In this document: positions 39,726 to 62,877 of the stretch, in pieces | Numbering within the stretch: position 1 is the first letter of the stretch | Layout of the letters: every line of letters starts with the position of its first letter | Assembly: GCA_947502815.1 (NCBI GenBank) | Contig: CANNBH010000001.1 | Coordinates: 1,488,001 to 1,552,000 of the forward strand | Source of the DNA: an uncultured Erythrobacter sp. | Lineage (GTDB): Bacteria; Pseudomonadota; Alphaproteobacteria; Sphingomonadales; Sphingomonadaceae | DNA: 64,000 bases | Direction: 5' to 3' | Translations under genes and position numbers: made by a program | Notes under the pieces: model-generated | What the model was told of the DNA's origin: nothing | Database searches by the model: none | What the model saw: only the letters and a program-made list of their open reading frames with translations

Positions 39726-39899
39726 TCTTTGCCAGAGCACTGTCCCGATATGGGATGGGAGCGGAAATGACCCAGTATCACTAACAATATGTTCACCATT
39801 ATCAGCGACAAACAACGGGTCACTCGCGGACCCAGATGTGCAGGTCGCTCCTGAAGCACGCATCCCGGTCTGCAGCACCGACCCAAGGATACGTATCAA

Positions 39900-40541: not shown

Positions 40542-40553
40542 GGCGCGCGCACA

Positions 40554-42077: not shown

Positions 42078-42087
42078 GGGGGCGGCT

Positions 42088-43122
42088 ATGACTGAACAAA
42101 GCAAAATTGACCGGGAAAACTCCCAGCGCACGCCGAAAAAGGTTTCCTTGTTCGAGCGGGCAGATGCCGCCTTTGGTTTGGACAATTTGGGACCCTCCTC
42201 GGTCCCCAAAAACCTTCCAAAGGGCAAGGTTGTTGCGCCTCGCGCCAAAGCGTCGGCGGTTGCGGACAGCGCAGTTGAAAGACCGATTGAGCGCAGAGCC
42301 GCTGCCCCTCAACCGGTGCCTGCTGCGGTGTATGAACCAGCGCCGAAACCCGTTTCCGAACCCGAAGTGGCGGCGCCCGTTCGCGCCGTTACCTTGTGCG
42401 GGCCGCGCATGGAAATTGGCCGCGACTATCTCGCTGATGCGGATCTAATCGTGCCAGAAAACCCTGTGACGGGGCTGCTTGAAGAATTTCGCATCGTAAA
42501 GCGCGAATTGCTCGCCGATGCTCGCGCCAGCGATGTTGACAATGCACGCCGCATTCTGATCTGTTCGCCGCTGCCTGGCGAAGGCAAAACCTATTGCGCC
42601 ACGAACCTTGCGATCGCTCTGGCTGCAGAGCGGGATATTGAGGTTGTGTTGGTCGATGCTGATATGATCAACCCATCGATCACGCGCCGTCTTGGGGTTG
42701 AGGCAGGTGCCGGGTTGATGGATGCTTTGGCAGACAAAACACTCAAACCAGAAGAATTGGTTTCGCCAACTGATATTGATGGTCTGTTCATCATGCCCGC
42801 TGGCACCAGCAGCGCGCGCGATGCGGAATATTTGACCAGCACCAGAACACAGCAAGTGCTCGATCGCCTAACGCGCGGCGCGCCAAATCGCTTTATCATT
42901 TTCGATACACCGCCTGCTCTTGCCGCATCGCCAGCCGCCGAATTGGCCGCGCATGTTGGTCAGGCCGTTTTGGTGGTTCGCGCCGATCAAACCGGTCGCG
43001 CGTCTTTGGACGATGCGTGCCAGCTGTTGTCGGCATGCCCAGATATTAAGCTGCTTCTTAACGCAGCACAATTCAGCCCGTCGGGTCGCCGTTTTGGCGA
43101 TTACGGCGAAAGGGAGGAATAA
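42088..43122 (+). CDS. XrtA-associated tyrosine autokinase (BY-kinase)
   Basis: 344 residues from the ATG at 42088. Residues 1-100 are a low-complexity, Pro/Ala-rich lead. The P-loop kinase domain has Walker A SPLPGEGKT (160-168), Walker A' VVLVDADMINPSI and Walker B IIFDTPPAL. It is of the CpsD/Wzc/EpsG type and would phosphorylate itself and the export machinery to tune polymer assembly. Unlike many BY-kinases its tail has no Tyr cluster (only one Tyr, in FGDYGE), which is unusual. The frame reaches back to 42040, inside the previous gene, without a reason to use it. Confidence 0.85.
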   Translation: MTEQSKIDRENSQRTPKKVSLFERADAAFGLDNLGPSSVPKNLPKGKVVAPRAKASAVADSAVERPIERRAAAPQPVPAAVYEPAPKPVSEPEVAAPVRAVTLCGPRMEIGRDYLADADLIVPENPVTGLLEEFRIVKRELLADARASDVDNARRILICSPLPGEGKTYCATNLAIALAAERDIEVVLVDADMINPSITRRLGVEAGAGLMDALADKTLKPEELVSPTDIDGLFIMPAGTSSARDAEYLTSTRTQQVLDRLTRGAPNRFIIFDTPPALAASPAAELAAHVGQAVLVVRADQTGRASLDDACQLLSACPDIKLLLNAAQFSPSGRRFGDYGEREE

Positions 43123-43124
43123 TC

Positions 43125-44744
43125 ATGCGCTTCTCAAAAGGAACGCTTTTGGTCGGATTGGCTGCGGGTGTCGTTGCCAATCCTGCTTTCGCTCAAGATT
43201 CCGGTTCGCGCGGCAGTGATCGCGCGGTCACCGTTCAACCCTATATCGAAGTCAGCCAAATTCTGTCCGCAGAACTGACGCCGGGCGATGAAGTGGTGAC
43301 GTTCACACAGATCGCCGCAGGGGTCGATTTGAACGCTCAGGGCCGCAATTCAGGGGCATCTGTCTCGGTTCGGTATGAGCGGAACATCGGTTATGGCGAC
43401 GCGGTTGATAACGACACGATCAGCGGCATCGCCCGCGGTTATGTCGCGGTTGTTCCGCAAACTCTCAACCTCGAAGCAGGCGCATTGGCCAGCCGCACAC
43501 GGCTTGACGGAGGCGGCGCTGTTTCGCCCAATCCGTTGGTAAGCGCCGATGCCACCAGCCAGACTTACGCGCTTTACGCAGGTCCAACGTTGTCAACGCG
43601 CGTCGGTGCGGTTGATCTCACCGCAAATGCGCGGGTGGGATACAATCGCTTTGAAACCGATGATGCGGTCTTGGATGCCAATGGCAATCCGGTCGATATC
43701 TTTGACGACAGCGTCACCTACAGTGGCCAAGTCCGAGCAGGAACGCGCCCTGGCGATGTTCTGCCGATCGGCGTCGCCGTAACCGCAGGCGGTTATCAGG
43801 AAGATATCTCCAACCTCGATCAACGCGTCCGCGATGTTTATGTGCGCGGTGATGTTGTTGTTCCAGTCAGCCCAACTCTGGCTCTGACCGGGGGCGTTGG
43901 ATACGAAGATGTCGAAGTGTCGAGCCGCGATGCGCTGCGCGATGCCAATGGCGATCCTGTAATCGGCAATGATGGACGGCTTGTCACAGACACCGCTTCT
44001 CCGCGCCTTGTCGCGTTTGATGTGGATGGCTTGCTTTGGGATGTCGGCGTTCTGTGGCGGCCCAGTTCGCGCACATCGCTCGCTGCGAGTGTTGGCGAAC
44101 GCTACGATTCGACTACCTATTACGGTTCATTCACCTATGTTCCGAGTGAGCGCAGTTCGCTCGGCATCAATGTCTATGACGGCATTTCTGGTGTCGGCGG
44201 TGCTCTCAACAATTCGCTGGCGAGCTTGTCGAGCGATTTTGTCGCCTCGCGCAATCCTTTAACGGGTGATTTCGGCGGCCTTGTGTCGGGCACGGATGGC
44301 GGCGGCCTTGTCAATTCGCTGGGTTCGGCGCGTTCTTCCGCATTCCGGGGCCGCGGTGTCTCTGCCTATTACCAACGCCAGATCGGCCGGCTCACCGCTG
44401 CCTTTGGAGCTGGATATGATCGCCGCACCTTTATCGCAGCCTCTGGGTCCGCGTTGGAAGCGGCCGATGGCCTGACCGATGAAAGCTACTACCTCACCGG
44501 GGCATTGACCCGTGAAGTTGGGCGCAGCGGCACACTACAAACCAACGCCTACATCAATTGGTTTGATGCAGGCGCAGGGGATGGCGATCTGACCGCGTTT
44601 GGCGCTTCGGCGGCTTACAACCGGCTTATCACCGGCAGGCTTTCCGCCCGTGCGGCGGTTGCCGTTGACTATTTTGACAGCGATTTCTCAGCAGAAGATT
44701 TCGCCACCGCAACGGCGCTGCTTGGCCTGCGCTACGATTTCTGA
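43125..44744 (+). CDS. TIGR03016-type PEP-CTERM/XrtA-associated outer membrane protein
   Basis: The 539-residue beta-barrel-type protein has a signal peptide of about 23 residues ending PAFAQ, then many short amphipathic strands separated by turns, and a C-terminal aromatic residue (LLGLRYDF) that suits BAM recognition. The gene order places it exactly where TIGR03016 proteins occur in XrtA loci. It starts 2 bp after the autokinase stop. Its likely job is outer-membrane passage of the polymer, but it could also be an anchoring or structural protein. Confidence 0.82.
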   Translation: MRFSKGTLLVGLAAGVVANPAFAQDSGSRGSDRAVTVQPYIEVSQILSAELTPGDEVVTFTQIAAGVDLNAQGRNSGASVSVRYERNIGYGDAVDNDTISGIARGYVAVVPQTLNLEAGALASRTRLDGGGAVSPNPLVSADATSQTYALYAGPTLSTRVGAVDLTANARVGYNRFETDDAVLDANGNPVDIFDDSVTYSGQVRAGTRPGDVLPIGVAVTAGGYQEDISNLDQRVRDVYVRGDVVVPVSPTLALTGGVGYEDVEVSSRDALRDANGDPVIGNDGRLVTDTASPRLVAFDVDGLLWDVGVLWRPSSRTSLAASVGERYDSTTYYGSFTYVPSERSSLGINVYDGISGVGGALNNSLASLSSDFVASRNPLTGDFGGLVSGTDGGGLVNSLGSARSSAFRGRGVSAYYQRQIGRLTAAFGAGYDRRTFIAASGSALEAADGLTDESYYLTGALTREVGRSGTLQTNAYINWFDAGAGDGDLTAFGASAAYNRLITGRLSARAAVAVDYFDSDFSAEDFATATALLGLRYDF

Positions 44745-44764
44745 TCCACGGAGCTTTCAACGTC

Positions 44765-45919
44765 ATGTACGATCAATATTACGGCTTTAGCGGACGACCA
44801 TTTCAGCTGACCCCTGATCCCGATTTCTATTTTGAAAGCGGCAGCCACAAAAAAGCGATGAGCTATCTTGGATACGGCCTCAACCAAGGTGAAGGCTTTA
44901 TTGTCATCACGGGTGAAGTCGGCGCGGGCAAATCGACGCTGGTTGCGCATTTGATGGAGCGGATCGACCGCGCCGCGCTGACAGTGGCGCAAATCGTTAC
45001 CACGGCTCTTGATGGGGAAGAGTTGATCCATGTGGTCGCCGCGGCCTTTGGCCTAGAGGTTGAAGGCCGCGATAAGGCAAGTGCATTGGGCGCGATTGAA
45101 AGCTTCCTCCAAGACGAAGCGCGCGCCGGACGCCGGTGCCTTTTGGTCGTGGATGAATGCCAAAACCTTGACCTCACCGCTCTCGAAGAGCTGCGGATGC
45201 TGTCAAACTTTCAATTGGGCGCGCATCCCTTACTGCAAAGCTTGCTGCTGGGTCAGCCTGAGTTTCGCCGGACTTTGGCGCATCATCCTGACTTAGAGCA
45301 ATTGCGTCAGCGGATCATCGCTTCGCACCATCTTGAAGCGCTCGATGCGGATGAAGTGGAAGATTACATCCACCACCGTCTTACGCATGTGGGCTGGGAT
45401 GGCCGGCCTTTGTTCGAAGACGGGCTATTGTCCGCGCTCTATGGCGCGACCGATGGTATTCCGCGCCGCGTCAACCAGGTTATGAACCGTCTCTTGCTGT
45501 TGGGTGCAATTGAGGAACAAGACGCTGTTGGCACCGCAATGTTGGATGCTGTTCTTGCCGAAATGTCTGCCGATCAATCGCGCGGATCGCGCGCCGAACC
45601 CAGCCCGTTGAGCATCGAACCCGACGCAGCAAGCCCCGCGTCGGACAAGGACATCGACAGTGTTCCTGCTGCCGAAGTGGCCGCTTTGCTGGCCGAACGC
45701 GATGCACGCACAGCGGATCTGGAGGCGGCAATCAATGAACTGCAGGCGGCAGGCGCACAAGGCAGTGTCGCATCAGAAGTCGGCGTTGACGAGGCTCACG
45801 TGAACGAAGCTCTTAGCCGGATTGAGCAGCGCCTCGCTGAACAAGAGCGGTCTTTCCGCCATGTTTTGACAATGCTGATCGAATGGCTTGAGGAAGATCC
45901 TTCGCGCGAGGCGGCCTGA
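44765..45919 (+). CDS. XrtA-associated AAA ATPase (ExeA/GspA-like)
   Basis: The 384-residue ATPase starts MYDQYYGFSGRPFQLTPDPD, the standard opening of the ExeA-like family. Walker A GEVGAGKST is at 50-58, Walker B CLLVVDECQN and the sensor region RILYGATDGIPRRVNQV-like follow. The C-terminal third (about 270-384) is acidic and coiled-coil-like. Such ATPases may remodel peptidoglycan or assemble the export complex. It is followed after 2 bp by the deacetylase gene. Confidence 0.88.
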   Translation: MYDQYYGFSGRPFQLTPDPDFYFESGSHKKAMSYLGYGLNQGEGFIVITGEVGAGKSTLVAHLMERIDRAALTVAQIVTTALDGEELIHVVAAAFGLEVEGRDKASALGAIESFLQDEARAGRRCLLVVDECQNLDLTALEELRMLSNFQLGAHPLLQSLLLGQPEFRRTLAHHPDLEQLRQRIIASHHLEALDADEVEDYIHHRLTHVGWDGRPLFEDGLLSALYGATDGIPRRVNQVMNRLLLLGAIEEQDAVGTAMLDAVLAEMSADQSRGSRAEPSPLSIEPDAASPASDKDIDSVPAAEVAALLAERDARTADLEAAINELQAAGAQGSVASEVGVDEAHVNEALSRIEQRLAEQERSFRHVLTMLIEWLEEDPSREAA

Positions 45920-45921
45920 TC

Positions 45922-46836
45922 ATGAACGCGCAAAGTTCATTCCCGGACACAGACACGCGAATAGCAAACGGTCTTTCCGTCGATGTCGAAGATTGGTTTC
46001 AAGTCGGTGCCTTCGAAAATGTGATTGACCGGGATGACTGGGATACGCTGCGCACGCGCGTTGATAACAATATCGACCGGATACTGGACCTGTTCGCTGA
46101 AGCGGATGTGAGCGCGACATTCTTCACATTGGGCTGGGTCGCCAAACGGCACCCGGCTATGATCCGCCGGATCGCCGATGCAGGGCATGAAATCGCCAGT
46201 CACGGCTATGACCATGCGCGCGTTTTCACATTTGATCGCAAAGGTTTCGGCGAAGACATCCGCCTTGCTCGCGATATTTTGCAAGATTGCTCTGGCAAGA
46301 GCGTGACGGGTTATCGTGCGCCCAGTTTCTCGATCGATCAACGCACGCCTTGGGCGTTCATGGAATTGGCGGAGCAAGGCTACGCCTATTCCTCAAGCGT
46401 GGCGCCGGTTGCGCATGATCATTATGGTTGGCCAGAAGCCCCGCGTTTTGCCTTTAAGCCGCTGCCTTGGTCGGATTTGATCGAGATTCCGGTGACGACC
46501 GCAATATTGGGCGGTCGCCGGGTCGCGGCAGGCGGAGGCGGTTTTTTCCGCGTTCTGCCTTACGGATTTTCGCGTTGGGCCATTCGGCAAGTGAACCGGC
46601 GCGATGAACGACCCGCAGTGTTTTACTTCCATCCGTGGGAGATCGACCCCGATCAGCCACGCGTGAAGCATGCGCCAATGCGTTCGCGGCTGCGCCATTA
46701 CACCGGTCTGGAAAAGATGGCGGTCAAATTACGCGGCCTCGTGCATGAATTTCGCTGGGGCCGTATGGATGTGCTCGCCCATCGCGAAGCAGCGCGGGCA
46801 TTAACTTTGGGTTCTGAAAGCGAGAAGGCCGCTTGA
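45922..46836 (+). CDS. XrtA-system polysaccharide deacetylase
   Basis: The 304-residue protein belongs to the NodB/CE4 family. The metal-binding Asp is in GLSVDVEDWFQ (D21/D24), and two His are in HEIASHGYDHARV. The AVTGYRAPSFSID-like TGYRAPSFSI segment and YFHPWEID near the C-terminus are typical of the DUF3473-containing XrtA deacetylase. It has no signal peptide, so it may act on lipid-linked sugar in the cytoplasm. Free amines made by it could be the site for the FemAB or amidotransferase step. Confidence 0.9.
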   Translation: MNAQSSFPDTDTRIANGLSVDVEDWFQVGAFENVIDRDDWDTLRTRVDNNIDRILDLFAEADVSATFFTLGWVAKRHPAMIRRIADAGHEIASHGYDHARVFTFDRKGFGEDIRLARDILQDCSGKSVTGYRAPSFSIDQRTPWAFMELAEQGYAYSSSVAPVAHDHYGWPEAPRFAFKPLPWSDLIEIPVTTAILGGRRVAAGGGGFFRVLPYGFSRWAIRQVNRRDERPAVFYFHPWEIDPDQPRVKHAPMRSRLRHYTGLEKMAVKLRGLVHEFRWGRMDVLAHREAARALTLGSESEKAA

Positions 46837-47894
46837 ACGCTCCGGTTAACATGGCTCAACGGGTGTGCATTGCCGACCTATCCGACCCAGCGATGGTGGA
46901 GCGGATAGAGGCGTTCGTGCGCGAGCAGCAAGGCGATGTGTTTCACCGTCCTGCATGGCTCAAAGCCGTGGAAGCCGGTACGGGGCAGCGCGCTTGCGGA
47001 ATGGTTGCGGAACAATTGGGCGCTGTAACCGGGTGGTTGCCGCTAACTGAAGTGCGGTCGGTCCTGTTCGGTAAAGCTCTGGTCTCAAGCGGCTTTGGCG
47101 TCGGTGGCGGTATTCTCGCCAATGGTGCGGATGCGGCCGCGATCTTGGCTGACACGGTTCAGGATCACGCCATCAAATTCGGTTTCCCCAGCGTTGAATT
47201 GCGCGGCGGGATGGTGCCTGATGGGTGGCGTGCTTGGGATGATAAGCATTGCAATTTTGCCCGGCCACTGGCTGCGGATGATGAGGCTGAATTGCTCGCC
47301 ATTCCGCGCAAGGCACGGGCCGAAGTTCGTAAGGGTCTGAAGAACAATTTGACCGTGCGAATTGGCCGATCAGCAGATGATTTGGCCGATCACTACGCCG
47401 TCTATTCCGAAAGCGTGCGCAATCTAGGGACCCCGGTTTTTCCTAAGTCTCTGTTTCGCGAGATGCTCGGCGCCTTTCCAGAAACCAGCGACATTCTCGC
47501 CATTTCGCAGGATGGCACGCCGCTGGCGAGTGTTCTGTCGCTCTATCACAACGGTGCCGTTATGCCGTTTTGGGGCGGGGGCAGTTTTGCCGCGCGCGGC
47601 GCACGCGCAAACGAGCTGATGTATTATGAATTGATGCTCCATGCCCGCAAGCAGGGCATGGCCGTGTTCGATTTTGGCCGGTCAAAAACAGACAGCGGGC
47701 CGTTTAAGTTCAAGAAAAACTGGGGCTTTGAACCGCAGCCCCTGACCTATTGCGAATGGACCGCACCCGGCGAGACGCCGCGAGATATTGATCCCACCAG
47801 CGAAGCCTATTCGCGCAAAATTGATGCGTGGAAACGGCTGCCATTGCCCATCGCCAATATGGTTGGGCCCTTTATTTCGCGCAGCCTCGCGTAA
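46833..47894 (+). CDS. FemAB-family XrtA/PEP-CTERM-associated protein
   Basis: The 353-residue GNAT-type acyl/aminoacyltransferase of the FemAB family has VFHRPAWLKAVEAGTGQ near the N-terminus, PLTEVRSVLFGKALVSSGFG, and the C-terminal AVFDFGRSKTDSGPFKFK segment. It may transfer an amino acid to the polymer or to peptidoglycan. Its TTG start overlaps the deacetylase stop (TTGA); an ATG lies 18 bp on. The TTG is kept because MNAP-type beginnings are common for this group. Confidence 0.88.
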   Translation: MNAPVNMAQRVCIADLSDPAMVERIEAFVREQQGDVFHRPAWLKAVEAGTGQRACGMVAEQLGAVTGWLPLTEVRSVLFGKALVSSGFGVGGGILANGADAAAILADTVQDHAIKFGFPSVELRGGMVPDGWRAWDDKHCNFARPLAADDEAELLAIPRKARAEVRKGLKNNLTVRIGRSADDLADHYAVYSESVRNLGTPVFPKSLFREMLGAFPETSDILAISQDGTPLASVLSLYHNGAVMPFWGGGSFAARGARANELMYYELMLHARKQGMAVFDFGRSKTDSGPFKFKKNWGFEPQPLTYCEWTAPGETPRDIDPTSEAYSRKIDAWKRLPLPIANMVGPFISRSLA

Positions 47895-47907
47895 AGAGGC
47901 GCGCATC

Positions 47908-49134
47908 ATGGGTGACATTCTTTTCCTCGCACATCGAGTGCCATTTCCTCCCAATCGCGGCGACAAAATCCGCGCGCATCATCTGCTCAAGAAGCTGGCG
48001 CAATTGGGCAGGGTACATGCCGGCTGCTTTGCCGAAAGCGAGGAAGACCGCGCGGGCGAGGGTGAACTGACCCAAATCACCGCTTCGCATTGTATTGTGA
48101 ACCGGACAAAGCCGTTGGTTCTGGCCGGGGTTGAGGCAGTGGTGGCGCGCAAACCGGTCAGCCTCACTGCATTTCACAGCGACGCATTAGACAATTGGGT
48201 GCGTCAGACAATTTTGGAGAATGCAATCACGACCATCGTGATATTCTCAGGGCAAATGGGGCAATATGTACCCGACGATTTCACAGGGCAGGTGGTGATT
48301 GACCTGTGCGATGTGGATAGCGCCAAATTCGAAGGATATGCTGCCGCCGGGCAGCGCGTCTGGCTCAACAATCGCGAAGGACATTTGCTCTCTCGGCAAG
48401 AGGAATATCTTGCCCAACGCGCCGATGCGACAATTTTGATCAGCGATGCAGAAGCCGCCCTGTTCCGGTCGCGCCTGAAATACCCAGCAACCGCCAATGT
48501 ACAGGTGATCGGCAACGGGATTGATGCTGCGTTTTTTGATCCGCTAACCGTAATGCCGCACTCTGCCATTGCGGCGCGTTCTGGTCCGCATTTCGTCTTT
48601 ACCGGGCAGATGGATTATTCGCCCAATGAAACGGCGGCCTTGTGGGCTTTTGATCATTTCTTGCCCGCCATTCGCGCGAAATTTCCCTCGGCGGAGTTGC
48701 ACATCGTGGGGCGCAACCCGACCAAAAAGCTGTTGGCGTATGCTGGGTTGGACGGGCTCACGATCTGGGGTGAAGTTCCCGATGTTCGTCCCTTTATTGC
48801 GGCGGCCACCTGCGTCATCGCGCCGCTTTTGATTGCGCGCGGGGTGCAAAACAAAGTGCTGGAAGCGATGGCGATGCAGCGGCCCGTTATGCTGACGCCC
48901 GAAGCAGCGACAGGCATTGATGCCGTGGATGGTGTGCAATGGTTGCTTTGCGAGGCAGACGCTGGCGCCATGTGCGAGCGAATTGGCGCAATGCTGCATG
49001 ATGCCGGTGCCCTTTCAAACATGGGCGAAGCCGCGCGGCAATTTGTTCTAAGCAACCATGATTGGGGGGCTATGCTGGCGCCGATCGAAGCCTTGGTGAA
49101 CGCAGACCGAGTGGAGGCCTCCAATGCCGCATGA
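47908..49134 (+). CDS. TIGR03087-type XrtA-system glycosyltransferase
   Basis: The 408-residue GT4-type glycosyltransferase has the GT-B N-terminus ILFLAHRVPFPPNRGDKIRA, then HFVFTGQMDYSPNE and LHIVGRNPTKK in the nucleotide-sugar domain, and VQNKVLEAMAMQRPVMLTPE as the catalytic E-x7-E region. It is the only glycosyltransferase in the locus, so the repeat unit is either short or completed by enzymes encoded elsewhere. AGAGG precedes the ATG at a good distance; the frame is open further upstream, into the FemAB gene. It overlaps xrtA by 11 bp. Confidence 0.88.
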   Translation: MGDILFLAHRVPFPPNRGDKIRAHHLLKKLAQLGRVHAGCFAESEEDRAGEGELTQITASHCIVNRTKPLVLAGVEAVVARKPVSLTAFHSDALDNWVRQTILENAITTIVIFSGQMGQYVPDDFTGQVVIDLCDVDSAKFEGYAAAGQRVWLNNREGHLLSRQEEYLAQRADATILISDAEAALFRSRLKYPATANVQVIGNGIDAAFFDPLTVMPHSAIAARSGPHFVFTGQMDYSPNETAALWAFDHFLPAIRAKFPSAELHIVGRNPTKKLLAYAGLDGLTIWGEVPDVRPFIAAATCVIAPLLIARGVQNKVLEAMAMQRPVMLTPEAATGIDAVDGVQWLLCEADAGAMCERIGAMLHDAGALSNMGEAARQFVLSNHDWGAMLAPIEALVNADRVEASNAA

Positions 49135-50167
49135 CGCCGTGACACAAGGATCGTCTCTGCCGAATAAGGCGGCAAAACGGTTGGCCCAAGTTCCTGCGGA
49201 ATGGCGCAAAACACTCATCGTGCTCGCCATTGGTGCAGCGTCAGTGATTCTGCTTGCCGCTCGTGAATGGGGTGAGATGGCGCACCAATGGTGGAACATC
49301 GATACCTACACCCATATCCTATTGGTGCCGGTAATTGTGGGATGGCTGTCCGCGTTGAAGCTGGGTGAATTGGCCAATATCACACCACGTCCTTGGATGC
49401 CGGGCCTCGCGATTGTGGCGGCCGCATTGGTGATCTGGATTGCGGGACGCACCAGCGGGATCAATATCCTTGCCCATGCCGGCGCGGTTGGCTTGCTTCA
49501 AGCGGTGGTGGTCACCGCGCTCGGGCCAAGAGCCTCGTTGGTGTTGGCCTTACCGATTGGCTTTGCCGCGTTTCTTGTCCCTGTCGGAGATGAATTTATC
49601 GCACCCCTGCAGGCGATTACCGCCGACATTGCGGTTGCGTTGACGCATTGGAGCGGTATTCCCGCGGTTGTCGACGGCATTTACATCGACACGCCGATTG
49701 GGTTGTTCATCGTTGCGGAGGCCTGTTCCGGGGTCAAATTCCTTGCTGCAATGGTCACGCTCGCCGTGCTGGTGGCGTTTACGCGTTTTGAAAGTTGGCG
49801 GCGCCGTGCAGCGTTTATGGCTGCGTCGATCATCGTGCCCATCATTGCCAACGGCATTCGCGCTTGGGGCACAATCTTTATCGCACAAAGCCAAGGCGTC
49901 GAATTTGCCGCAGGATTTGATCACATATTCTATGGCTGGATATTCTTCGCGATCGTCGTGGCAATCATCCTTTCCGTTGCTTGGCGCTTCTTTGAAAGAG
50001 AGCCCGAGGAAAATGGCTGGAGCGCATCGCAAGTCGCTGCCTTCCCTTGGTTATCTCGGCTTGAGGCAGGCTCGATCAGCCCGATTGTCGCCGTTGCAGG
50101 TTTTGCCGGCCTGTGTATCGGCGCGGGCATTATCGGGGCGATTGTCGCGCCGGCTGCATTGGGCTAA
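49124..50167 (+). CDS. xrtA: exosortase A
   Basis: The 347-residue multi-pass membrane transpeptidase has about eight hydrophobic helices. The catalytic Cys201 is in EACSGVKFL, Arg is in NGIRAWGT, and His in FDHIFYGW. The rest after residue 300 is a short Ser/Ile-rich hydrophobic tail. In some relatives the exosortase is fused to or followed by an EpsI (DUF3485) domain; here there is none. Its N-terminal 30 residues are cytoplasmic. It overlaps the TIGR03087-type glycosyltransferase gene by 11 bp and is followed 14 bp later by the amidotransferase. Confidence 0.9.
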   Translation: MPHDAVTQGSSLPNKAAKRLAQVPAEWRKTLIVLAIGAASVILLAAREWGEMAHQWWNIDTYTHILLVPVIVGWLSALKLGELANITPRPWMPGLAIVAAALVIWIAGRTSGINILAHAGAVGLLQAVVVTALGPRASLVLALPIGFAAFLVPVGDEFIAPLQAITADIAVALTHWSGIPAVVDGIYIDTPIGLFIVAEACSGVKFLAAMVTLAVLVAFTRFESWRRRAAFMAASIIVPIIANGIRAWGTIFIAQSQGVEFAAGFDHIFYGWIFFAIVVAIILSVAWRFFEREPEENGWSASQVAAFPWLSRLEAGSISPIVAVAGFAGLCIGAGIIGAIVAPAALG

Positions 50168-50181
50168 TCGCGCAACTGATT

Positions 50182-52080
50182 ATGTGCGGCATTGCAGGTC
50201 TCTTTCACGCGGAAACGCCCAAACCCGTTGATCCCACTCGAGTGGAGGGGATGTGCAACGCTTTGGTGCACCGCGGGCCGGACGGGGCTGGCGTATGGAC
50301 AGACCACGGCGTCGGGCTTGGCCATCGGCGATTGTCGATCATCGATCTCGAAGGGTCGCCGCAGCCCATGCACAGCGCCGATGGCCGCGCTGTCATCGTG
50401 TTCAACGGCGAAATCTACAATTTTCGTGAGCTCCGGCGCGAGCTGGAGCTGGGCGGGGCACAGTTCCGCACCAGCGGCGACACCGAGGTCATTTTGGCCG
50501 CTTACCAGCGCTGGGGCCTTGATTGCCTTGAAAAGCTGCACGGCATGTTCGCATTTGCGCTCTTTGATTTGGATAAGCGGTGCCTGCTGCTGGCGCGTGA
50601 TCGTTTTGGGGTAAAGCCGCTTTTTCTGACCAAATTGTCAGATGGCAGCGTGGCTTTTGCCTCTGAATTGAAGGGCCTTTTGGCGCACCCCCTGATGCGG
50701 CGGCGCGTCGATCCGCAGGCGCTCGAAGCATATATGACTTGGGGCTATGTGCCCGATAGCCATTCGATTTTGTCTGGTGTGGAAAAGCTGCCTGCAGGCC
50801 ATTTCCTGCTGCTTGAACACGGCAAACCCATGCCCGCGCCGCGCCGTTGGTGGGATATTGATTTCACCCAAAGAGCGACCGAGAGCGAAGCGGATCTGTC
50901 GGCCGAGTTGGTCCACCTTTTGCGAGAAGCGGTGCAATCACGCATGGTTTCTGACGTGCCGCTGGGAGCGTTTTTGTCGGGCGGGGTCGATAGCTCAAGT
51001 GTGGTGGCTTTGATGAGCGAGGCCAGTGCGGAGCCGGTGCGGACGTGTTCCATCGGCTTCGATGTCGCGGCCCTAGATGAAACAAGTTATGCGCAGCAGA
51101 TCGCCGAAAAATTCGGCACACAGCATGAGGCGCGCACCGTCGGTCAGGACGATTTTACCGCCATCGATGATATCGCTGCGATGTTTGATGAACCCTTCGC
51201 CGATGCCTCTGCCTTACCCACATGGCGGGTGTGCCAGTTGGCCCGAGAAAAGGTGACAGTGGCGCTGTCTGGTGACGGAGCGGATGAGGCGTTTGCAGGC
51301 TATCGCCGCCAAGTGTTCCACCACAATGAAGAACGCGTCCGTTCCTTGCTGCCTGCCGGCCTGCGAGAGCCCATGTTTGGCGGGTTGGGGCGCATGTGGC
51401 CCAAGGCGGATTGGGCGCCGCGACCTTTCCGCGCAAAATCGACATTGCTGGCGCTCGCTGAGAGCGGCGAGGCGGGCTATGCGCGCGGCCTTTCGGTTAC
51501 AACGCCCGATGCGCGCGGTCATCTTTACACGCCGAGTTTTGCGAAAGGTCTTAATGGATTTCGGGCCGAAGATGAATTGATCGAGATTATGGCCAACGCT
51601 CCGGCGCGCAGTGGGTTGGACCGGGCTCAATATGCTGATCTGACATTCTGGATGCCCGGCGATATTCTGACGAAGGTGGACCGCACGAGTATGGCTGTCA
51701 GCCTAGAGGCGCGCGAGCCGCTGCTGGATCATCGCCTGGTCGAATTTGCGGCCCGCTTGCCGGAAAGGATGCGGGTCAAACGGAGCACAGGGAAGTTCCT
51801 CCTTAAGAAGTGTATGGAGCGATATCTACCGCAAGACATCCTCTATCGGTCCAAACAAGGGTTTGTGACCCCGATAGCCGATTGGCTGCGCGGGCCTCTG
51901 CGTAAAGAGGCAAGGGCGATCGCCTCCAGCTCGGTCTTGGCGCAATCCGATTGGTTCGATCCAAAAGCGCTATCCGCATTAGCCGAAGCCCACATCTCCG
52001 GCAGAAGCGATAACTCGCGCGTTTTGTGGCAATTGTTGATGCTCGAAAAATCACTCTCGCATTTGGGTGTCAGTGACTAA
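50182..52080 (+). CDS. XrtA/PEP-CTERM-system amidotransferase (AsnB-like)
   Basis: The 632-residue protein is an asparagine-synthetase-like enzyme. The N-terminal class II glutaminase has the catalytic Cys2 after Met removal (MCGIAGLFH), and the ATP-pyrophosphatase domain has the SGGVDSSSV PP-motif. In XrtA loci such enzymes are thought to amidate a precursor rather than to make asparagine. The frame continues upstream into xrtA, but the Cys must be residue 2, which fixes the start. It ends the plus-strand arm; the next gene lies 222 bp on. Confidence 0.9.
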   Translation: MCGIAGLFHAETPKPVDPTRVEGMCNALVHRGPDGAGVWTDHGVGLGHRRLSIIDLEGSPQPMHSADGRAVIVFNGEIYNFRELRRELELGGAQFRTSGDTEVILAAYQRWGLDCLEKLHGMFAFALFDLDKRCLLLARDRFGVKPLFLTKLSDGSVAFASELKGLLAHPLMRRRVDPQALEAYMTWGYVPDSHSILSGVEKLPAGHFLLLEHGKPMPAPRRWWDIDFTQRATESEADLSAELVHLLREAVQSRMVSDVPLGAFLSGGVDSSSVVALMSEASAEPVRTCSIGFDVAALDETSYAQQIAEKFGTQHEARTVGQDDFTAIDDIAAMFDEPFADASALPTWRVCQLAREKVTVALSGDGADEAFAGYRRQVFHHNEERVRSLLPAGLREPMFGGLGRMWPKADWAPRPFRAKSTLLALAESGEAGYARGLSVTTPDARGHLYTPSFAKGLNGFRAEDELIEIMANAPARSGLDRAQYADLTFWMPGDILTKVDRTSMAVSLEAREPLLDHRLVEFAARLPERMRVKRSTGKFLLKKCMERYLPQDILYRSKQGFVTPIADWLRGPLRKEARAIASSSVLAQSDWFDPKALSALAEAHISGRSDNSRVLWQLLMLEKSLSHLGVSD

Positions 52081-55641: not shown

Positions 55642-55977
55642 TGTGTCGTGATCCCTGGTTGCCCCGGCCATCTGTTTAACGCCTATGCCATAGGAGGCAA
55701 GACGCCATATGGGATGATGCGCGGCAGAGTGTTTGTGCTTCCTCCAATCGCCTAACGCAGTGTTACACGCAAGTGCACTGTTTCGAAATGTTGAACAGTT
55801 CCGTGCAACCCCGGATTTCTGCCGTTTTGGGCGTATCAGACGCGGTTTGAGTGTCAGTTTCCAATTCCCGCGCACACGCGCACCTGTCGGAGCGGCGCGA
55901 GAAGGGTAGGGACATGGGAACTTAGCGGGCATTGCTTCGCTGTAACCGGCATGGACGTTGTAGGAAAACCGCAGACT
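55642..55977. other. 336-bp divergent intergenic region
   Basis: It lies between the start of sdhB (minus) and of the SDR (plus). Apart from the ribosome-binding sites at both ends I see no clear promoter, repeat or hairpin. The longest open frame in it is the upstream extension of sdhB, which lacks coding character. Confidence 0.6.
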
Positions 55978-56721
55978 ATGCCTGAGACAAAACTGATCCG
56001 CCGCGCCGCAATCTTTGGCAGCAGCGGCGCAATTGGCCGGGCGCTGTGCGTGCAATTGGCGCAGCAGGGATGCGAGACCATCTATGCCGGATCGCGCGGC
56101 GGGGAAATTCCCCCCGGCTTTCCCGCGGGTACCCGCGTTCAAAACTTTGCCTTTGATTTGGGCGATGAAGCCAGCATCAAAGCCGCTGCGGAGCGGATGA
56201 AGCATAATCCACCCGAATTGACCATCGCCGCCACCGGCCTACTGACGTTGCCCGATGGCACCGGGCCAGAGCGCACCGTTAAACGGTTGGATCCCGTCGT
56301 TATGGCTCGGGTGATGGCGATCAACACCATTGGCCCTGCAATGATCGCCAAACATATGCTTGCGCTGATGCCGCGCGATCGGCGCTGTGTGTTTGCCGCG
56401 CTCAGCGCGCGCGTGGGATCGATCAGCGACAATGGCCTTGGCGGATGGCATTCTTACCGCGCATCCAAGACGGCGCTCAACATGTTGATCAAGAATTTCG
56501 CATTGGAAATGCGCCGCACCCACCAACACGCTGTCATCGCAGGCTTGCATCCCGGAACCGTCGACAGCGCCCTGTCGCGGCCTTTTCAATCGAACGTGCC
56601 AGAGGGGCAATTGACCAATCCAACAGACGCGGCCGAAAATTTGCTTTCGGTGCTGGCGGGTTTGACCGCGCAGGATAGCGGCAACATCTTCGATTATGCG
56701 GGCGAAAAGATCCCGGCTTGA
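55978..56721 (+). CDS. SDR family oxidoreductase (C-factor-like)
   Basis: 247 residues from the ATG at 55978, which has AGGA about 12 bases before it; an upstream ATG at 55951 lacks one. The Rossmann motif is [12 protein letters not shown], and the active site Tyr-x3-Lys is in [13 protein letters not shown]. The family resembles the csgA/C-factor-type SDRs, which take part in development in Myxococcus, but the role here is unknown. A strong hairpin follows its stop before the convergent curlin-like gene. Confidence 0.85.
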
Positions 56722-56821: not shown

Positions 56822-59800
56822 TTAGTTTTGGCTAACCGTAATGCTGTTGCCCGTGCCGGCCTGATTGACGGTTGAGAAGTTGCCGTCAGAGCCTTGTGTC
56901 ACGGTCGTGGTGTTGGTCGCACCGCTTTGCGTGATCAGACTGGTGTTGAGATCACCCGTTTGGAAGAGCTCTGCGAACTGGCTGTCACCGCTCTGCGTGA
57001 TTGTTGACGTGCCGTTGTCGCCCTCTTGGTTGATGTCGACAGAATTGTTCGTGCCGCCAGCAGCCATAGTCAGCGTCGAGGTGTTGCCCTGACCGATTTG
57101 ATCGATGAACGCCACGTCGCCTGTGCCAAGCTGAGTTATGGTCGAGGTGTGATCATCGCCGTCTTGGAGCAATGTGGCCTCGTTGCCGTCACCGCCTTGC
57201 GTGGTGGTTGAGGTGTTGCCCAGCCCGCCTTGGGTTAGAGTGAACACCTGATTGACACCGCTTTGCGCGACGGTTGAAGCGTTTTCGTCACCGACCTGTG
57301 TTGAGGTCACGGTTTGGTTGTCACCATCTTGAGTGATGGTGCTTTCATTGGTGAAGAAGTTGGGTGAAAGCAGGTCAAACCCTTCTTGCGTCACGGTCGC
57401 CGTGCTGTTGGTCGCGTTCTGCGTAATGGCTGAGTTGTTAAAGCCAACTGGCCCAAGCTGCGTCACATTCGAGGTGCTGTTTGCGCCGAACTGCGTGACA
57501 AGCGAGCGGTTGCCTTCTGCTGCCTGGCTCACAACCGCTGTGCTGTCCGATGCAAACTGCGCCACTTCTGAGAAGCTGTCGTCTGAGGACTGGGTAACGT
57601 CTGCATTACCACTCAAAGCGGTTTGAATGATAAGCGAGGTGTTGCCATCGCCATCTTGTTCAATGTCAGCAAGACCGAGCCCGCCGCTTTGGGTGATCGT
57701 CGAAGCGTTTCCAACGCCGCCGGTCAGAACAATCGCGTTGTTATTACCATTGCTTTGAGTAACCTCAGAGCTGTTGCCATCACCAACCTGTGTAACATTA
57801 GCGCCTTCCCCACTTCCGGTCTGCGTAATGATGCTGGTGTCGGTGGTGCCAGAGCCATCAAGGTCGATGCCCTCTTGGCTGACTGTCGCGAAATTGGCTG
57901 AGCCTGCTTGATTGACGGTTGAGCTTGCGCCCTCTCCGACCTGACTGACGGCGGCAGTTTCAGCTGTGCCCGTTTGCGTCACGAAAGAGGTGTTGCCATC
58001 GCCAGTTTGGAAAGTGTCAGCGTCGTTAGCAACGCTGAACTGAGTTATCTCTGAGGTGTTATCATCACCTGATTGAACCACATTGGCATCGTTTAAGCCT
58101 AGGGCACCACTCTGTTGGTTGACGATCGAGCTGTTGTTGTCGCCACCTTGATTGACGAAGATGTCGCCTTCATTGCCAGCTTGAATGGCGTTCGAGAAGT
58201 TGTCTTCACCGGTCTGATCAAGGTCAACATTGCCGTCCGTGCCGCTCTGCGTGATGAAGCTTGTGTTCTCCACGCCCGATTGGTTCACATCGGCAAAGTT
58301 GCTGTCGTTGTTCTGCGTAACTTCGCTGCGGCCGTTCAGGCCAGCTTGAAGGACAACCGCCTGTTGATCGGTGCCGGTTTGCGCGACGATGGATGTGTCT
58401 TCGTCGCCCTGCTGGGTGACCGTCACATCGCTGAGGCTATCGGCCTGTGTCACGGTCGATGAGTTTGCATCGCCGTCTTGTGAGACGGTTGCGGTCACAT
58501 CTGTGCCCGACTGGGTGATGCCTGAAGAGTTACCAACGCCGCCGGTGATCAGCGAGGCTGTGCTAAGCGAGCCGCTTTGCGCAACAAAAGAGCTGTTGTT
58601 GTCGCCCACTTGTTCAACATCAGCGGTGTTTTGATCGCCCGATTGCAGAACCGTGCTGCTGTTCGCTGCAAGGCTGCCATCAAGGTCGAACCCGGTTTGG
58701 GTGACTGTGGCGGTGTTGTCATCATCAAGCTGGTTGATGGTCGAGCTGTCGAAATCGCCGTTCTGCGTGATCGTCGCCGTGACGTTGTCAGCGACATCAG
58801 TTTCAAGACCTTGCGTGGTGACGCTGGAGTTGAAATTGCCTGTCTGCGTCAGCGTGTGTGTGCTGTCTTCGCTGTCCTGATCGACAGTGGCGAAGTTGTC
58901 ATCGCCGCCCTGTGTGATGGTGCTGGTGTTGTTGTCATCACCCGGCCCGGAGAAATCGACCCCTTGGCCCAAAACACGCGCAGTGTTGCGATTGCCAGAC
59001 TGAGTAATTGTGCTGGTCTGATCGTCTGAGACATCGCCCTGAATGACGCTGGCAATATTGTCATCGCCAGACTGAAGGATCGTGCTGATGCTGTCTTCGG
59101 ATCCCTGATCGGTGTCAGCAGTGTTGCCATTGCCCGATTGCGTGTGAGTGATGGTCGAATCGTCATCATCTTGGAACGCGACCGAACTGTTGCCATCGCC
59201 GCTTTGCGTGATGAGCACGATGCCGCGGTCGGTGTTGCCGTCCTGATCGACAAAGCTGGTGTTGCCGGTGCCCGATTGAATGACATCGACATCGCTGTCT
59301 TCACCATCTTGAAGAATGGTCGACGAATTGTCCGCGGCCGTTTGCAAAACATTGGCGTCGTTGGTGTTTTGCGATTGGGTGATGTCGGAGAAATTGTTGT
59401 CGCCGTCTTGGCTAACGGTTGCGATTTGATCGTCACCCGCCTGTTCAACCAGCGAGGTCACATTCGTGCCCGCAACCTGAGTCACGGTCGCCGTTGCTGT
59501 ATCGCCGGTTTGAATGACCAGGCTGACCGCGTCGGTCGTCGGTGCTTCCTGCCGGATAATCGCTGTGCCAGCCACGCCGGATTGATCAATGAACGAACCT
59601 GTTCCCGAACCGAAACCGGACCCCGTGCCGTCTTGGATCACGTCAGCGGAGTTGCTCGCGCCGCCGCCGGCGTTCACCTGAGAAATTTCAGAATTCATCC
59701 CAACGCTGGGGCCGTCCTGTTCAACGGTAGCGATATTGTCGCCGGTTTGGGTGATTTCGGAGAAACCATCCGTGCCGTTCTGATTAACAATCGCTTCGTT

Positions 59801-59989
59801 GGAGATGCCGTCACCGCTCAAAACGGTGCCGTCCTGCGTAACAACCGAACCGTTATTGGTTCCGGGCTGGTTAACGATGGCAGAGTTGGCGTTGCCCGTT
59901 TGATCAACGGTGCTGTTGTTCTGCGCATAGGCCTGCGCAGAAACGCTCAGCGCCAAAACAGACGCGCTAGCAAAGATAATATTTTTCAC
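56822..59989 (-). CDS. giant secreted curlin-repeat protein
   Basis: The 1055-residue protein has a signal peptide of about 22 residues (MKNIIFASASVLALSVSAQA, cleaved near AYA-Q). The rest is an array of roughly 80-90 units of about 11 residues matching the curlin motif Q-x-G-x2-N-x-S/A-x3-Q, for example QDGDNNFSDITQ. CsgA has five 22-residue repeats, so this is many times larger. It is rich in Asp, Ser, Thr, Asn and Gln, nearly lacks Lys, and has very few Arg. At least six units carry longer loops of about 6-9 extra residues (near 55, 340, 395, 433, 705 and 866). The start is GTG with GGGGGA. It ends SITVSQN with no PEP-CTERM. No csgB/E/F/G gene is nearby. A surface amyloid or beta-solenoid is the inference. 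Confidence 0.82.
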   Translation of the reverse strand: MKNIIFASASVLALSVSAQAYAQNNSTVDQTGNANSAIVNQPGTNNGSVVTQDGTVLSGDGISNEAIVNQNGTDGFSEITQTGDNIATVEQDGPSVGMNSEISQVNAGGGASNSADVIQDGTGSGFGSGTGSFIDQSGVAGTAIIRQEAPTTDAVSLVIQTGDTATATVTQVAGTNVTSLVEQAGDDQIATVSQDGDNNFSDITQSQNTNDANVLQTAADNSSTILQDGEDSDVDVIQSGTGNTSFVDQDGNTDRGIVLITQSGDGNSSVAFQDDDDSTITHTQSGNGNTADTDQGSEDSISTILQSGDDNIASVIQGDVSDDQTSTITQSGNRNTARVLGQGVDFSGPGDDNNTSTITQGGDDNFATVDQDSEDSTHTLTQTGNFNSSVTTQGLETDVADNVTATITQNGDFDSSTINQLDDDNTATVTQTGFDLDGSLAANSSTVLQSGDQNTADVEQVGDNNSSFVAQSGSLSTASLITGGVGNSSGITQSGTDVTATVSQDGDANSSTVTQADSLSDVTVTQQGDEDTSIVAQTGTDQQAVVLQAGLNGRSEVTQNNDSNFADVNQSGVENTSFITQSGTDGNVDLDQTGEDNFSNAIQAGNEGDIFVNQGGDNNSSIVNQQSGALGLNDANVVQSGDDNTSEITQFSVANDADTFQTGDGNTSFVTQTGTAETAAVSQVGEGASSTVNQAGSANFATVSQEGIDLDGSGTTDTSIITQTGSGEGANVTQVGDGNSSEVTQSNGNNNAIVLTGGVGNASTITQSGGLGLADIEQDGDGNTSLIIQTALSGNADVTQSSDDSFSEVAQFASDSTAVVSQAAEGNRSLVTQFGANSTSNVTQLGPVGFNNSAITQNATNSTATVTQEGFDLLSPNFFTNESTITQDGDNQTVTSTQVGDENASTVAQSGVNQVFTLTQGGLGNTSTTTQGGDGNEATLLQDGDDHTSTITQLGTGDVAFIDQIGQGNTSTLTMAAGGTNNSVDINQEGDNGTSTITQSGDSQFAELFQTGDLNTSLITQSGATNTTTVTQGSDGNFSTVNQAGTGNSITVSQN

Positions 59990-60154
59990 AGATTTCCCCC
60001 GGTTGGTGGCTCACCACCATCAAAAACTCGTTTTGCGACCCGAGCGCGGAGGCTTTTAGCCTTCCGTTAGGAGAAAACGACTAACAGGAACACTGGCACA
60101 GGTAAATACACTTATCGCAAGGTTTTCCGCTTGTAGGGCATGCCCACGCAGCGG

Positions 60155-61174
60155 TCAGATTAGGCCGTGACGCGCCAATCCCTCGGCCAATATCGTCTCG
60201 ATCAGGTCTTCTTGCGTCCAACCTGCCATCACTGCCGCGCGGCCAAAGACCTTTTGCGACCACAAATTGCAGTTTAGGTTGAGCTCAAGGAACGTGATCT
60301 CGCCCGTTTCTTCGTTCACGCGGAATTCGAACCGGCCATAATCAAACGGGCGATATTCCTGCCAGACCCGCTTTGTCAGTTCAGAAATGCGGGCGACCAT
60401 TTCAGGATCGGTGAACGGATCGAGCGAGTATTTCTGGCTGCGGTCGACCAAGTCGCGTTTTTCGTAATAGGTGCGAAGATGCGAAGGGTCTGCCTGTCTG
60501 AAAATCAGCATGGGCAGGATCTGCGGCTCACCATTGATCGTGACAACCGGAACTTCGACATCGCTGCCGTCCAGAAACGGTTCGACAATGGCGTCTTGCC
60601 CGCCGTTTGCCGGGTCTTCGTGGATGCGTTTGACAGCTGCGGCGACACTGTCCCAATCACGCGCGTCCTCAACCCCCCAGCTGGCGGAGGAGTTGTTCGG
60701 CTTCACCACATAACGCGATGCTTTGGGCAAACCCTCGGCAGAGACAGGCGCGCCTTTGCGATAGACTGCCCACGGAGCCGTGGGAACGTCTGCCTGTGCG
60801 GCTGACCTTTTGGCGAGATGCTTATCGTCCGACAGCCCGCGAAGAATGGGGTTGGCCCCCAAATACGGGATGCCGGCTTTTTCGCACAAGAGCGGAACAA
60901 GCATCTCAGAATTGAAAAATCCAGCGCGGTTCAAAAGCGGAAACACGAAGTCGATGCCCGAGGGGGCATCGAACAAAATGTCATGCGTTTGAGATATCTC
61001 GAGGTTCAGACCCAACCCCTCCAGCACTCTGCGCATTTCCTGATGGTAATAGGCGTGGTTCCCATCCTTCGGATGCAATTCGCCTTCCCATAGCGCGTTT
61101 TTCGCCAGGAACAGGATTTTCAGCCGCTCTTTGGCTGCATCAGGAATACGTAATGGGTTCAATTTTTGCGGCAT
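60155..61174 (-). CDS. ATP-grasp ligase, D-Ala-D-Ala-ligase-like
   Basis: The 339-residue ATP-grasp protein resembles D-alanine--D-alanine ligase in its central and C-terminal domains: K158 in VVKPNNSSASWGV, the IVEPFLDGSDVEVPVV strand, and E297-L-N299 in FLELNLNCNLW as Mg ligands. It lacks the EVNTxPG loop of true Ddl, and the N-terminal part (residues 18-110) has GIDFVFPLLNRAG in place of the usual serine loop, so the product is probably not D-Ala-D-Ala. It is divergent from the PLP enzyme, with 182 bp between. Confidence 0.8.
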   Translation of the reverse strand: MPQKLNPLRIPDAAKERLKILFLAKNALWEGELHPKDGNHAYYHQEMRRVLEGLGLNLEISQTHDILFDAPSGIDFVFPLLNRAGFFNSEMLVPLLCEKAGIPYLGANPILRGLSDDKHLAKRSAAQADVPTAPWAVYRKGAPVSAEGLPKASRYVVKPNNSSASWGVEDARDWDSVAAAVKRIHEDPANGGQDAIVEPFLDGSDVEVPVVTINGEPQILPMLIFRQADPSHLRTYYEKRDLVDRSQKYSLDPFTDPEMVARISELTKRVWQEYRPFDYGRFEFRVNEETGEITFLELNLNCNLWSQKVFGRAAVMAGWTQEDLIETILAEGLARHGLI

Positions 61175-61356: not shown

Positions 61357-62877
61357 ATGCATCACGCGTTATTCAGGCGAGTGCGCTCAAATTCGGGATC
61401 GAAAACTATCTCTCAAATCAGGCTAAGTCGGCCCCATGCGGGCTTTGAATTTGCGGCAGCTGATCGCCGCCTTATCAAATCCCTCTCAAGCGGCGGCGAT
61501 GCGCGCATCAAATTGCAGGCGGAAACGGGGCTCAACATCTATCTGTCTGGGCCTTACCCGCGCGATGTGATTGCCTATTCCTCTTCGACGGTTAGCGATA
61601 TTTCACCCGCCGCCTTTGATCATTTGCGCGACCTCGGCCCAGAACAAAGTGATTATGCGCAAAATGATTATGCGCATTGGTTGGCCAATTTGGCGCTGCG
61701 GATTAAGACTGCGTTTCAGATTGGCCAGCATGCCGAAGTGGTGTTTGCCCCATCGGGAACCGATCTTGAATATGTCAGCTTGGCGGCTGTCACCGGCCTT
61801 GGCGCGGGCGGGGTGCACAATATCCTGCTGGGCGCGGACGAAATTGGCAGCGGGTGCGTCCATTCGGCCCGGGCGCGGTATTTTGCGCGCGAAACGGCAT
61901 TGGGAAATCTGGTTTCGGCGGGTCAGGACGTGCCCGGATTTGGCGATGTCAGCATGATCGATGTTCCGGTCAGATGCGGCGCCGGGCAAAGGCGGTCCAG
62001 CGCCGAGATTACGCACGATATGATCCGCGAAATTGAATCGGCACAGCGGGCTGGGAAACACAGTTTGGTTCATGGTGTCCATGGATCAAAAACGGGTTTG
62101 GTGCTGCCCGGATTATCCGACATCGAAGCTATGAAGACGCGTTTCGGCGACGATGTTACCTTTGTTATCGATGCGTGTCAGGCGCGCATAACCCAACCCG
62201 CCATCGCCGGTTATCTCGCGCGCGGGGCGATCGTGTTGATGACGGGGTCCAAATTTGTCGGCGCGCCGCCGTTCAATGGTTGGGCGCTGGTTCCGCCTGC
62301 ATTGATTGACCGTGCCCGCGATTTGCCAAAGGGGCTTTCTACCATTTTTCGCAGTGCAGAATGGCCGAAACGGTGGCCGGGCGCTGAGATATTGCCTGAC
62401 ACAGACAATCTGTCGCTTGCGCTGCGGCTAGAGGCGGCGGTGTTTGAGTTGGAGCGTTTCCAGCGGATCGAGATGGAGCGCGTGACCGCCATCATTGCCG
62501 AATTTGAAGCGGCCGTTACCCACTGTCTGATCGAAAAATTGCCCGCCAAACGAGTATGCCCAGGCGGGGCAGGCGCTGATTTGCCGATCGAAATGCGCAC
62601 TCTGGTTACGCTGGATGTCAGCCAAATGCCGGGTCTTGCGACATTCGATGAGGCCAAGGCTGTTCACGCCAAACTTGCTCTGGATGGCATTCGTCTGGGG
62701 CAGCCGGTCAAATGCGTAGCGTTGGACGACAATCGCGGGTGGGGTGGAACATTGCGGTTGGGCCTGTCTATGCCAATGATAACCAATTGGGCGGAGCAAC
62801 CGATCGAGCAGGTGCGCAGCAGTTTGGAGCAAGACATGGCCCGCATTGCCCATGCGATTAAGGCTGCCGTCGCTTGA
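61357..62877 (+). CDS. PLP-dependent aminotransferase class V-like enzyme
   Basis: Up to 506 residues; the start is unsure (ATG 61357 or GTG 61381, and family similarity may start as late as residue 28). The fold-type I core shows APSGTDLEYVSLAAV, the Asp and Gln of the PLP site in VIDACQARI (D272, Q275), and the Schiff-base lysine K299 in MTGSKFVGAPPFNGW. I do not recognise a specific function; it looks like a cysteine desulfurase/selenocysteine lyase relative without the usual cysteine loop. It is divergent from the ATP-grasp gene and 100 bp upstream of a methyltransferase. Confidence 0.72.
   Translation: MHHALFRRVRSNSGSKTISQIRLSRPHAGFEFAAADRRLIKSLSSGGDARIKLQAETGLNIYLSGPYPRDVIAYSSSTVSDISPAAFDHLRDLGPEQSDYAQNDYAHWLANLALRIKTAFQIGQHAEVVFAPSGTDLEYVSLAAVTGLGAGGVHNILLGADEIGSGCVHSARARYFARETALGNLVSAGQDVPGFGDVSMIDVPVRCGAGQRRSSAEITHDMIREIESAQRAGKHSLVHGVHGSKTGLVLPGLSDIEAMKTRFGDDVTFVIDACQARITQPAIAGYLARGAIVLMTGSKFVGAPPFNGWALVPPALIDRARDLPKGLSTIFRSAEWPKRWPGAEILPDTDNLSLALRLEAAVFELERFQRIEMERVTAIIAEFEAAVTHCLIEKLPAKRVCPGGAGADLPIEMRTLVTLDVSQMPGLATFDEAKAVHAKLALDGIRLGQPVKCVALDDNRGWGGTLRLGLSMPMITNWAEQPIEQVRSSLEQDMARIAHAIKAAVA

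Follow-up and report, generated by a model that had tools for sequence, protein, structure and literature searches.

A giant curlin-repeat protein encoded away from the csg cluster of an uncultured Erythrobacter, and its probable export through CsgG in trans

The window analysed here, 64,000 nucleotides of an uncultured Erythrobacter (C1:1488001-1552000 of the source genome, G000), encodes a giant protein of curlin repeats that we call W1055. W1055 belongs to a known family, in which it is unusual, and does not point to a new secretion system. Judging from sequence comparisons, and with a probability of roughly 0.7, we read it as a giant CsgA-type paralogue that is exported in trans through CsgG and folds outside the cell into a curli-like solenoid. 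The protein would be made with a Sec signal and exported by Sec, CsgH might help to hold it unfolded in the periplasm, and the chain would thread, still unfolded, through the CsgG channel with CsgF. Outside the cell it is predicted to fold into a beta-solenoid segment of about 44 rungs in a curli-like fibre, and such segments may stack end to end, alone or mixed with smaller paralogues. The finding of an exporter elsewhere in the genome removes the seeming paradox of a giant amyloid-type protein without one.

Repeat chain and predicted fold

An earlier reading made from the window's sequence only had described an open reading frame (ORF) of 1055 residues at this place, with some 80-90 units, a signal peptide and an acidic chain almost free of lysine. 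The frame exists, on the minus strand (Table 1); on the plus strand, frame 1 over 56822-59989 is interrupted by stops. Pfam Curlin_rpt (PF07012) matches W1055 in 32 stretches (E 3e-87; 286.6 bits against a cut-off of 20.7), and the NCBIfam models for CsgB and CsgA both exceed their cut-offs (328.8/165 and 242.1/160), repeat number inflating both scores. A repeat parse, with a motif rule derived from W1055 itself and 300 composition shuffles of the 1032-residue mature chain as controls, returned 80 units (shuffles 24.7 ± 3.9, maximum 35), and 62 of the 79 unit spacings are of 11 residues. Gln positions with at least five of six motif features also number 80 (shuffles 17.1 ± 3.8, maximum 27), and Gln-to-Gln spacing is exactly 11 residues in 56 of 96 gaps (3.4 ± 2.0 in shuffles). 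Along runs of 11-residue units, the residue at Q-4 alternates between Ser and Ala, Val or Ile. Adjacent units (lag 1) have the same residue there in 2% of 57 pairs, and units two, three and four steps apart in 66% of 41, 11% of 28 and 53% of 19 pairs. The true period is therefore a 22-residue two-strand rung, as in curli.

AlphaFold2, given a 16-sequence alignment, returned five models with a mean predicted local distance difference test score (pLDDT) of 78.2 in the best and 61.5 in the worst, and a predicted template modelling score (pTM) of 0.54. The prediction is all-beta, with 86 strand elements, or 88 when two double-length ones are counted twice, so that the figure of 80-90 units was right. 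The structure prediction that the sequence-only reading had proposed thus gave an all-beta chain of 88 strands, and the single long beta-solenoid it had pictured is supported, as a modelled fold, by the two-strand rungs, by this prediction and by a match to the solved structure 8c50. Its further idea of a pre-made fibre is doubtful: at the curli rise of 4.8 Å per repeat (PMC10192328), 44 rungs would span about 21 nm, the size of a long subunit as against a micrometre fibre.

The repeats extend from the signal peptide to the final residue, with no other domain. The signal peptide, judged by eye from its MKN start, hydrophobic core and AYA-Q cut, looks similar to those of the compared curlins, and the C-terminal TGNxxxVxQ ending recurs in three of the five curlins of the csg cluster and in a second giant of the same genome, O1031. 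The acidic composition was borne out: the net charge is -130, with 13% Asp+Glu, six Arg, a single Lys at residue 2 of the signal peptide, no Cys and no Trp. Purifying selection acts on the gene, as judged by the ratio of non-synonymous to synonymous substitution rates (dN/dS), which is 0.13 at dS 0.96 against a relative in genome G030 (residues 1-425) and 0.20 at dS 1.23 against one in G377 (826 codons). An alignment of upstream regions revealed no common promoter, the G030 stretch giving nothing beyond the ribosome-binding region. Recurrent insertion loops (GFDLDGS, GIDLDGS and GFDLLSP, at residues 432-442, 706-716 and 869-880) disrupt the 11-residue spacing at several turns, and the 478-residue curlin of the csg cluster has a loop resembling them; that they are cation-binding decorations is speculation.

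Among solved structures, the best sequence match is 8c50 (E 5.1e-26), and CsgA of E. coli (8enq) matches at E 9.8e-6. The protein in 8c50 is R15.5, a CsgA homologue of Pontibacter korlensis that polymerises in vitro into fibrils whose aggregation responds to calcium and which bind thioflavin T poorly (PMC10192328). Since this best-matching solved relative binds the dye poorly, a thioflavin T test could mislead for W1055. R15.5 and W1055 are both acidic and built of two-strand rungs of about 22-23 residues; R15.5 differs in having 15.5 rungs against the 44 predicted here, which makes W1055 about three times longer, and in being more acidic (20% Asp+Glu and an isoelectric point of 2.98, against 13%; PMC10192328). 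With E. coli CsgA (8enq/8enr), W1055 shares curlin repeats behind a signal peptide. It differs in lacking an N22-like targeting stretch, in being unlinked to csgG and in that no CsgE was detected in its genome; the E. coli genes form the operons csgBAC and csgDEFG (PMC11005368).

Table 1. Positions of W1055, its parts and bordering genes in the window, with csgH of the csg cluster (locus L010); aa, amino acids; nt, nucleotides
Feature	Position	Strand	Remarks
Short-chain dehydrogenase gene	55951..56721	+	Borders, on the left, the site that has no curlin in three relatives
W1055 coding sequence	56822..59989	-	GTG start at 59989, 1055 aa; from ORF, PF07012 and repeat parse
Mature curlin-repeat chain	56825..59920	-	1032 aa without Lys or Cys; 44 two-strand rungs predicted (about 88 half-repeats)
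Tract identical to O1031	58320..58714	-	395 nt; O1031 lies 1.13 Mb away; inside 664 nt at 89.8%
Sec-type signal peptide	59921..59989	-	23 residues; cut expected after AYA; judged by eye
GGGGGAAAT, candidate ribosome-binding site	59992..60000	-	Just upstream of the GTG; by eye
D-Ala-D-Ala-ligase-like ATP-grasp gene	60155..61174	-	Right border of the same site
csgH	L010:15297-15665		122 aa; scores 35.1 bits with NF041112 (cut-off 35)

Export genes and their co-occurrence with curlins

The sequence-only reading had stressed that no csg genes lie nearby and had supposed secretion by an unknown route. The first point holds for the window, where whole-genome searches placed no CsgG, no CsgE and no curlin gene besides W1055 (CsgF was not searched genome-wide), but not for the genome, which has a cluster with csgG, csgF and csgH 0.93 Mb off. 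The absence of an exporter is rejected: CsgG has a single match in G000, at C1:618390-619043 (E 1.4e-58), 0.93 Mb from W1055, and it aligns to the solved CsgG 3x2r (E 8.3e-51). With CsgG, CsgF and CsgH encoded in the genome and curlins tracking CsgG across the order, the supposed unknown route is not supported. Of the three genes for which a genome search had been suggested, csgG was found, with csgF beside it (E 2.9e-31), but CsgE gave no match in the whole genome. According to PMC3521004, csgE is missing from all Alphaproteobacteria; published surveys (PMC10192328, PMC3521004) describe the class as also lacking csgC and csgD, with csgH present in many members.

The csg cluster (C1:617.8-627.7 kb; locus L010) comprises csgF, csgG, five curlins, a 268-residue protein and csgH, the same genes as the alphaproteobacterial csgF-csgG-csgA/B-csgH cluster, from which it differs by its four long curlins (478, 345, 687 and 544 residues), its 200-residue curlin and the 268-residue protein before csgH. 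The 200-residue curlin is CsgB-sized but scores only 60.6 bits with the CsgB model, whose cut-off is 165. The CsgH assignment is supported by a predicted model of seven strands, for which Foldseek ranks CsgC 2xsk first (1.0e-4) and CsgH 2n59 third (4.0e-4); its specificity is weakened by the score for CsgC (PF10610, only 14.9 bits against 25) and by unrelated Ig-like (immunoglobulin-like) domains that score equally by VIA-align, and when the PDB was searched by sequence the candidate matched no CsgC or CsgH. The 268-residue protein (L010:14480-15283, plus strand) lies between the CsgB-sized curlin and csgH and has a signal-peptide-like start. It has no Pfam or NCBIfam match and has relatives in nine of the twelve other csg clusters, and it is a candidate for an undescribed curli accessory protein. 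At the search threshold, seven curlin genes were found in G000; W1055 and O1031 (1031 residues, C1:2676-2679 kb) are the two unlinked giants among them.

Co-occurrence was followed in two overlapping sets, G000 with 60 relatives (61 genomes) and a 297-genome sample of the order. In the former, curlin repeats occur in 13 genomes, the very ones in which CsgG matches at E <= 1.1e-55, and ten further genomes have weaker CsgG-like matches only and no curlin. In the latter, 33 genomes have curlins, strong CsgG (E <= 2.6e-49) occurs in 31, all within those 33, and 65 more have weaker CsgG-like matches only, none with a curlin match. Since the two sets share genomes and their members are related, these co-occurrences are not independent events. 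Curlins unlinked to csgG are present in six of the 13 genomes (G000, G020, G021, G024, G029 and G030, with G024 among the matches listed). In G020, the csg cluster holds csgF, csgG, one 221-residue curlin, a 272-residue protein and csgH, and all five long curlins found lie outside it, at four sites. Because the giants are unlinked to csgG, their export through CsgG, if real, must be in trans.

Several observations weigh against export and folding of this kind. Foldseek searches with the W1055 model returned beta-helices but no curlin chain, and no match reached E <= 0.001, though the absence of curlin chains among these matches does not exclude a curlin fold. Mature W1055 begins straight in the repeat, without the N22 targeting stretch of E. 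coli CsgA, though N22-like stretches are the exception among CsgA homologues (PMC10192328). A sigma-70 scan, which covers one promoter type, gave no match on the W1055 strand. Among the genomes of the order, G267, a 99%-complete draft in 40 contigs, has a long curlin of about 550 residues and no CsgG that we could find, and G264 has two weak curlin matches (best 2e-4) and no CsgG match. The G267 orphan (L091:17003-18754, minus strand) may be a relic, reflect a gap in the draft or use another export route; about 2% of genomes with CsgA lack CsgG (PMC10192328).

Relocation, segment exchange and competing accounts

The site of W1055, between the dehydrogenase and ATP-grasp genes of Table 1, is empty of curlin in three relatives (G036, G026 and G012), where this interval has no curlin and no significant remnant of one; the curlin genomes G004, G021 and G030, whose ATP-grasp match is only 48-53% identical, were left out of this comparison. 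At the site of O1031 (ribD-ribE to an ompA-like or aspartate aminotransferase gene) curlins occur in ten genomes, whose loci (L011, L012, L023, L044, L046, L050, L051, L081, L085 and L088) were all picked for holding curlins. When the first 180 residues of W1055 were searched for in 114 genomes of the genus, 12 matches other than W1055 itself reached E <= 1e-20. Five lie at the ribE-ompA site, including the two closest, G377 (80%) and G030 (73%); the other seven have neither the window's nor the ribE site's neighbours in the stretch fetched, and none of the 12 lies at the window's site. With five matches at the ribE-ompA site, the closest among them, and none at its own, W1055 looks like a relocated giant of the ribE-site type. 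Recent import from a distant genome was rejected: with a GC (guanine-cytosine) content of 0.556, and of 0.644 at third codon positions (GC3), W1055 agrees with the four neighbouring genes for which these values were taken, and its closest relatives among the matches belong to the same genus.

Along its length W1055 is a mosaic of affinities. Over residues 1-425 it shares 86% identity with G377 and 81% with G030. In a comparison by segment that left out G377, residues 1-470 are nearest G030 (72-87%), the next stretch is nearest O1031 (residues 426-556 being identical) and, again with G377 left out, the last 95 are nearest G024 (67%). The likeness to O1031 sets in sharply on one side of the tract and fades gradually on the other: in 50-nucleotide blocks, identity runs 0.42, 0.44 and 0.64, then 1.00 in seven blocks, and falls beyond the identical tract through 0.94, 0.84, 0.78, 0.72 and 0.68 down to 0.48. 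No other pair among the 71 curlin frames shares an exact run as long as 395 nucleotides. The only other run within a genome, 92 nucleotides in G007, joins two frames that resemble overlapping reads of one stretch, and one exact run of 44 nucleotides links curlin frames of G029 and G031. Shared ancestry alone was rejected as the source of the identity, since one flank drops to 0.42-0.64 while the other declines stepwise from 0.94 to 0.48, and since no other such pair was found. Recent gene conversion between W1055 and O1031 is the simplest reading and a likely one; alternatively, the identity may be an assembly error.

On such grounds one might propose, tentatively and at odds well short of even, a distributed curli system in which one CsgG serves scattered, mobile giants that swap segments by gene conversion, so that strains differ in their mixes of long solenoids and the fibre surface is varied by recombination, much as surface proteins vary in other bacteria. 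If true, G020 would be its extreme form, where the cluster keeps only the genes for export, nucleation and the chaperone and all major subunits are encoded elsewhere.

The same tract could be taken to mean that W1055 is a silent or rarely expressed copy, chiefly a donor of sequence to expressed curlin genes. The mosaic affinities, the site empty in three relatives and the lack of a sigma-70-like promoter match on its strand agree with this. We nevertheless consider it improbable, given the intact 1055-codon frame with its GTG, a stretch resembling a ribosome-binding site, a signal peptide and purifying selection, the limit of the promoter scan to one promoter type, and the fact that just one such tract was found among the 71 frames compared. 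A comparably small chance falls to W1055 being a curlin rod that neither polymerises nor forms amyloid, a beta-solenoid surface protein serving as an adhesin or matrix scaffold. Its very acidic, regular rod and the insertion loops at some turns would suit such a part, and very large Shewanella adhesion proteins have curli-like repeats (PMC3521004); W1055, however, has no other domain and ends like most cluster curlins, and its closest solved relative polymerises in vitro (PMC10192328). Slightly less probable still is the idea that W1055 is a self-sufficient single-chain fibre, pre-made and exported by another route independently of the curli machinery. The lack of csgG in the window, the unlinked position of W1055 and the G267 curlin without detected CsgG speak for it. 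Set against these are the csgF, csgG and csgH cluster of the same genome, strong CsgG in 13/13 and 31/33 curlin genomes, the long curlins of G020 lying only outside the csg cluster, and a span of about 21 nm for 44 rungs. Export in trans through CsgG accordingly remains our preferred reading.

Published curlins and neighbouring genes

W1055 is about seven times the size of the usual curli subunit, CsgA of E. coli having 151 residues and five repeats. Both its length and the curlin copy number of its genome are within published ranges, which allow 4 to 62 repeats in a protein and as many as 30 csgA copies in one genome (PMC10192328), the maximum in an older survey being 22 repeats (PMC3521004). 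Nor is it the longest: a protein search found at least 34 relatives of 593 to 1632 residues, all with PF07012, among the best 7995 candidates scored, and curlin frame 1129 of G030 is similar to W1055 in length or above it. Surveys place csgA genes mostly within curli operons and extra copies often in extra operons (PMC10192328, PMC3521004), whereas W1055 and O1031 are stand-alone giants at unlinked sites. Less described in these two surveys are such unlinked, stand-alone giants, a csg cluster without a long curlin and the exchange of segments between distant curlins; the new details here are that three relatives have no curlin at the W1055 site and that a 395-nucleotide tract is identical to O1031. 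A search of titles and abstract openings that did not cover most subscription journals returned nothing on stand-alone giant curlins, Erythrobacter curli or csgA gene conversion. Operon-based surveys may overlook the largest curli subunits. Within the genus, curlins of genomes with CsgG range in length between about 200 and more than 1000 residues, a natural series that would allow tests of whether the channel limits chain length and of how subunit length relates to fibre mechanics.

Beyond the right border of the W1055 site, a 506-residue ORF (61357-62877, plus strand), for which neither Pfam nor NCBIfam gave a match at the thresholds applied, adjoins the ATP-grasp gene and a methyltransferase gene, and the trio is kept in G036 and G012. 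On the other side, an XrtA/PEP-CTERM exopolysaccharide cluster (36943-52080, plus strand) ends about 5 kb from W1055. It encodes an XrtA-associated acyl-CoA ligase, a pyridoxal phosphate (PLP) decarboxylase, a chain-length determinant, an ATPase, a deacetylase, FemAB, exosortase A and an amidotransferase, together with a tyrosine kinase whose score is under its cut-off. The amidotransferase gene has the same place in the curlin-free sites of G036 and G026.

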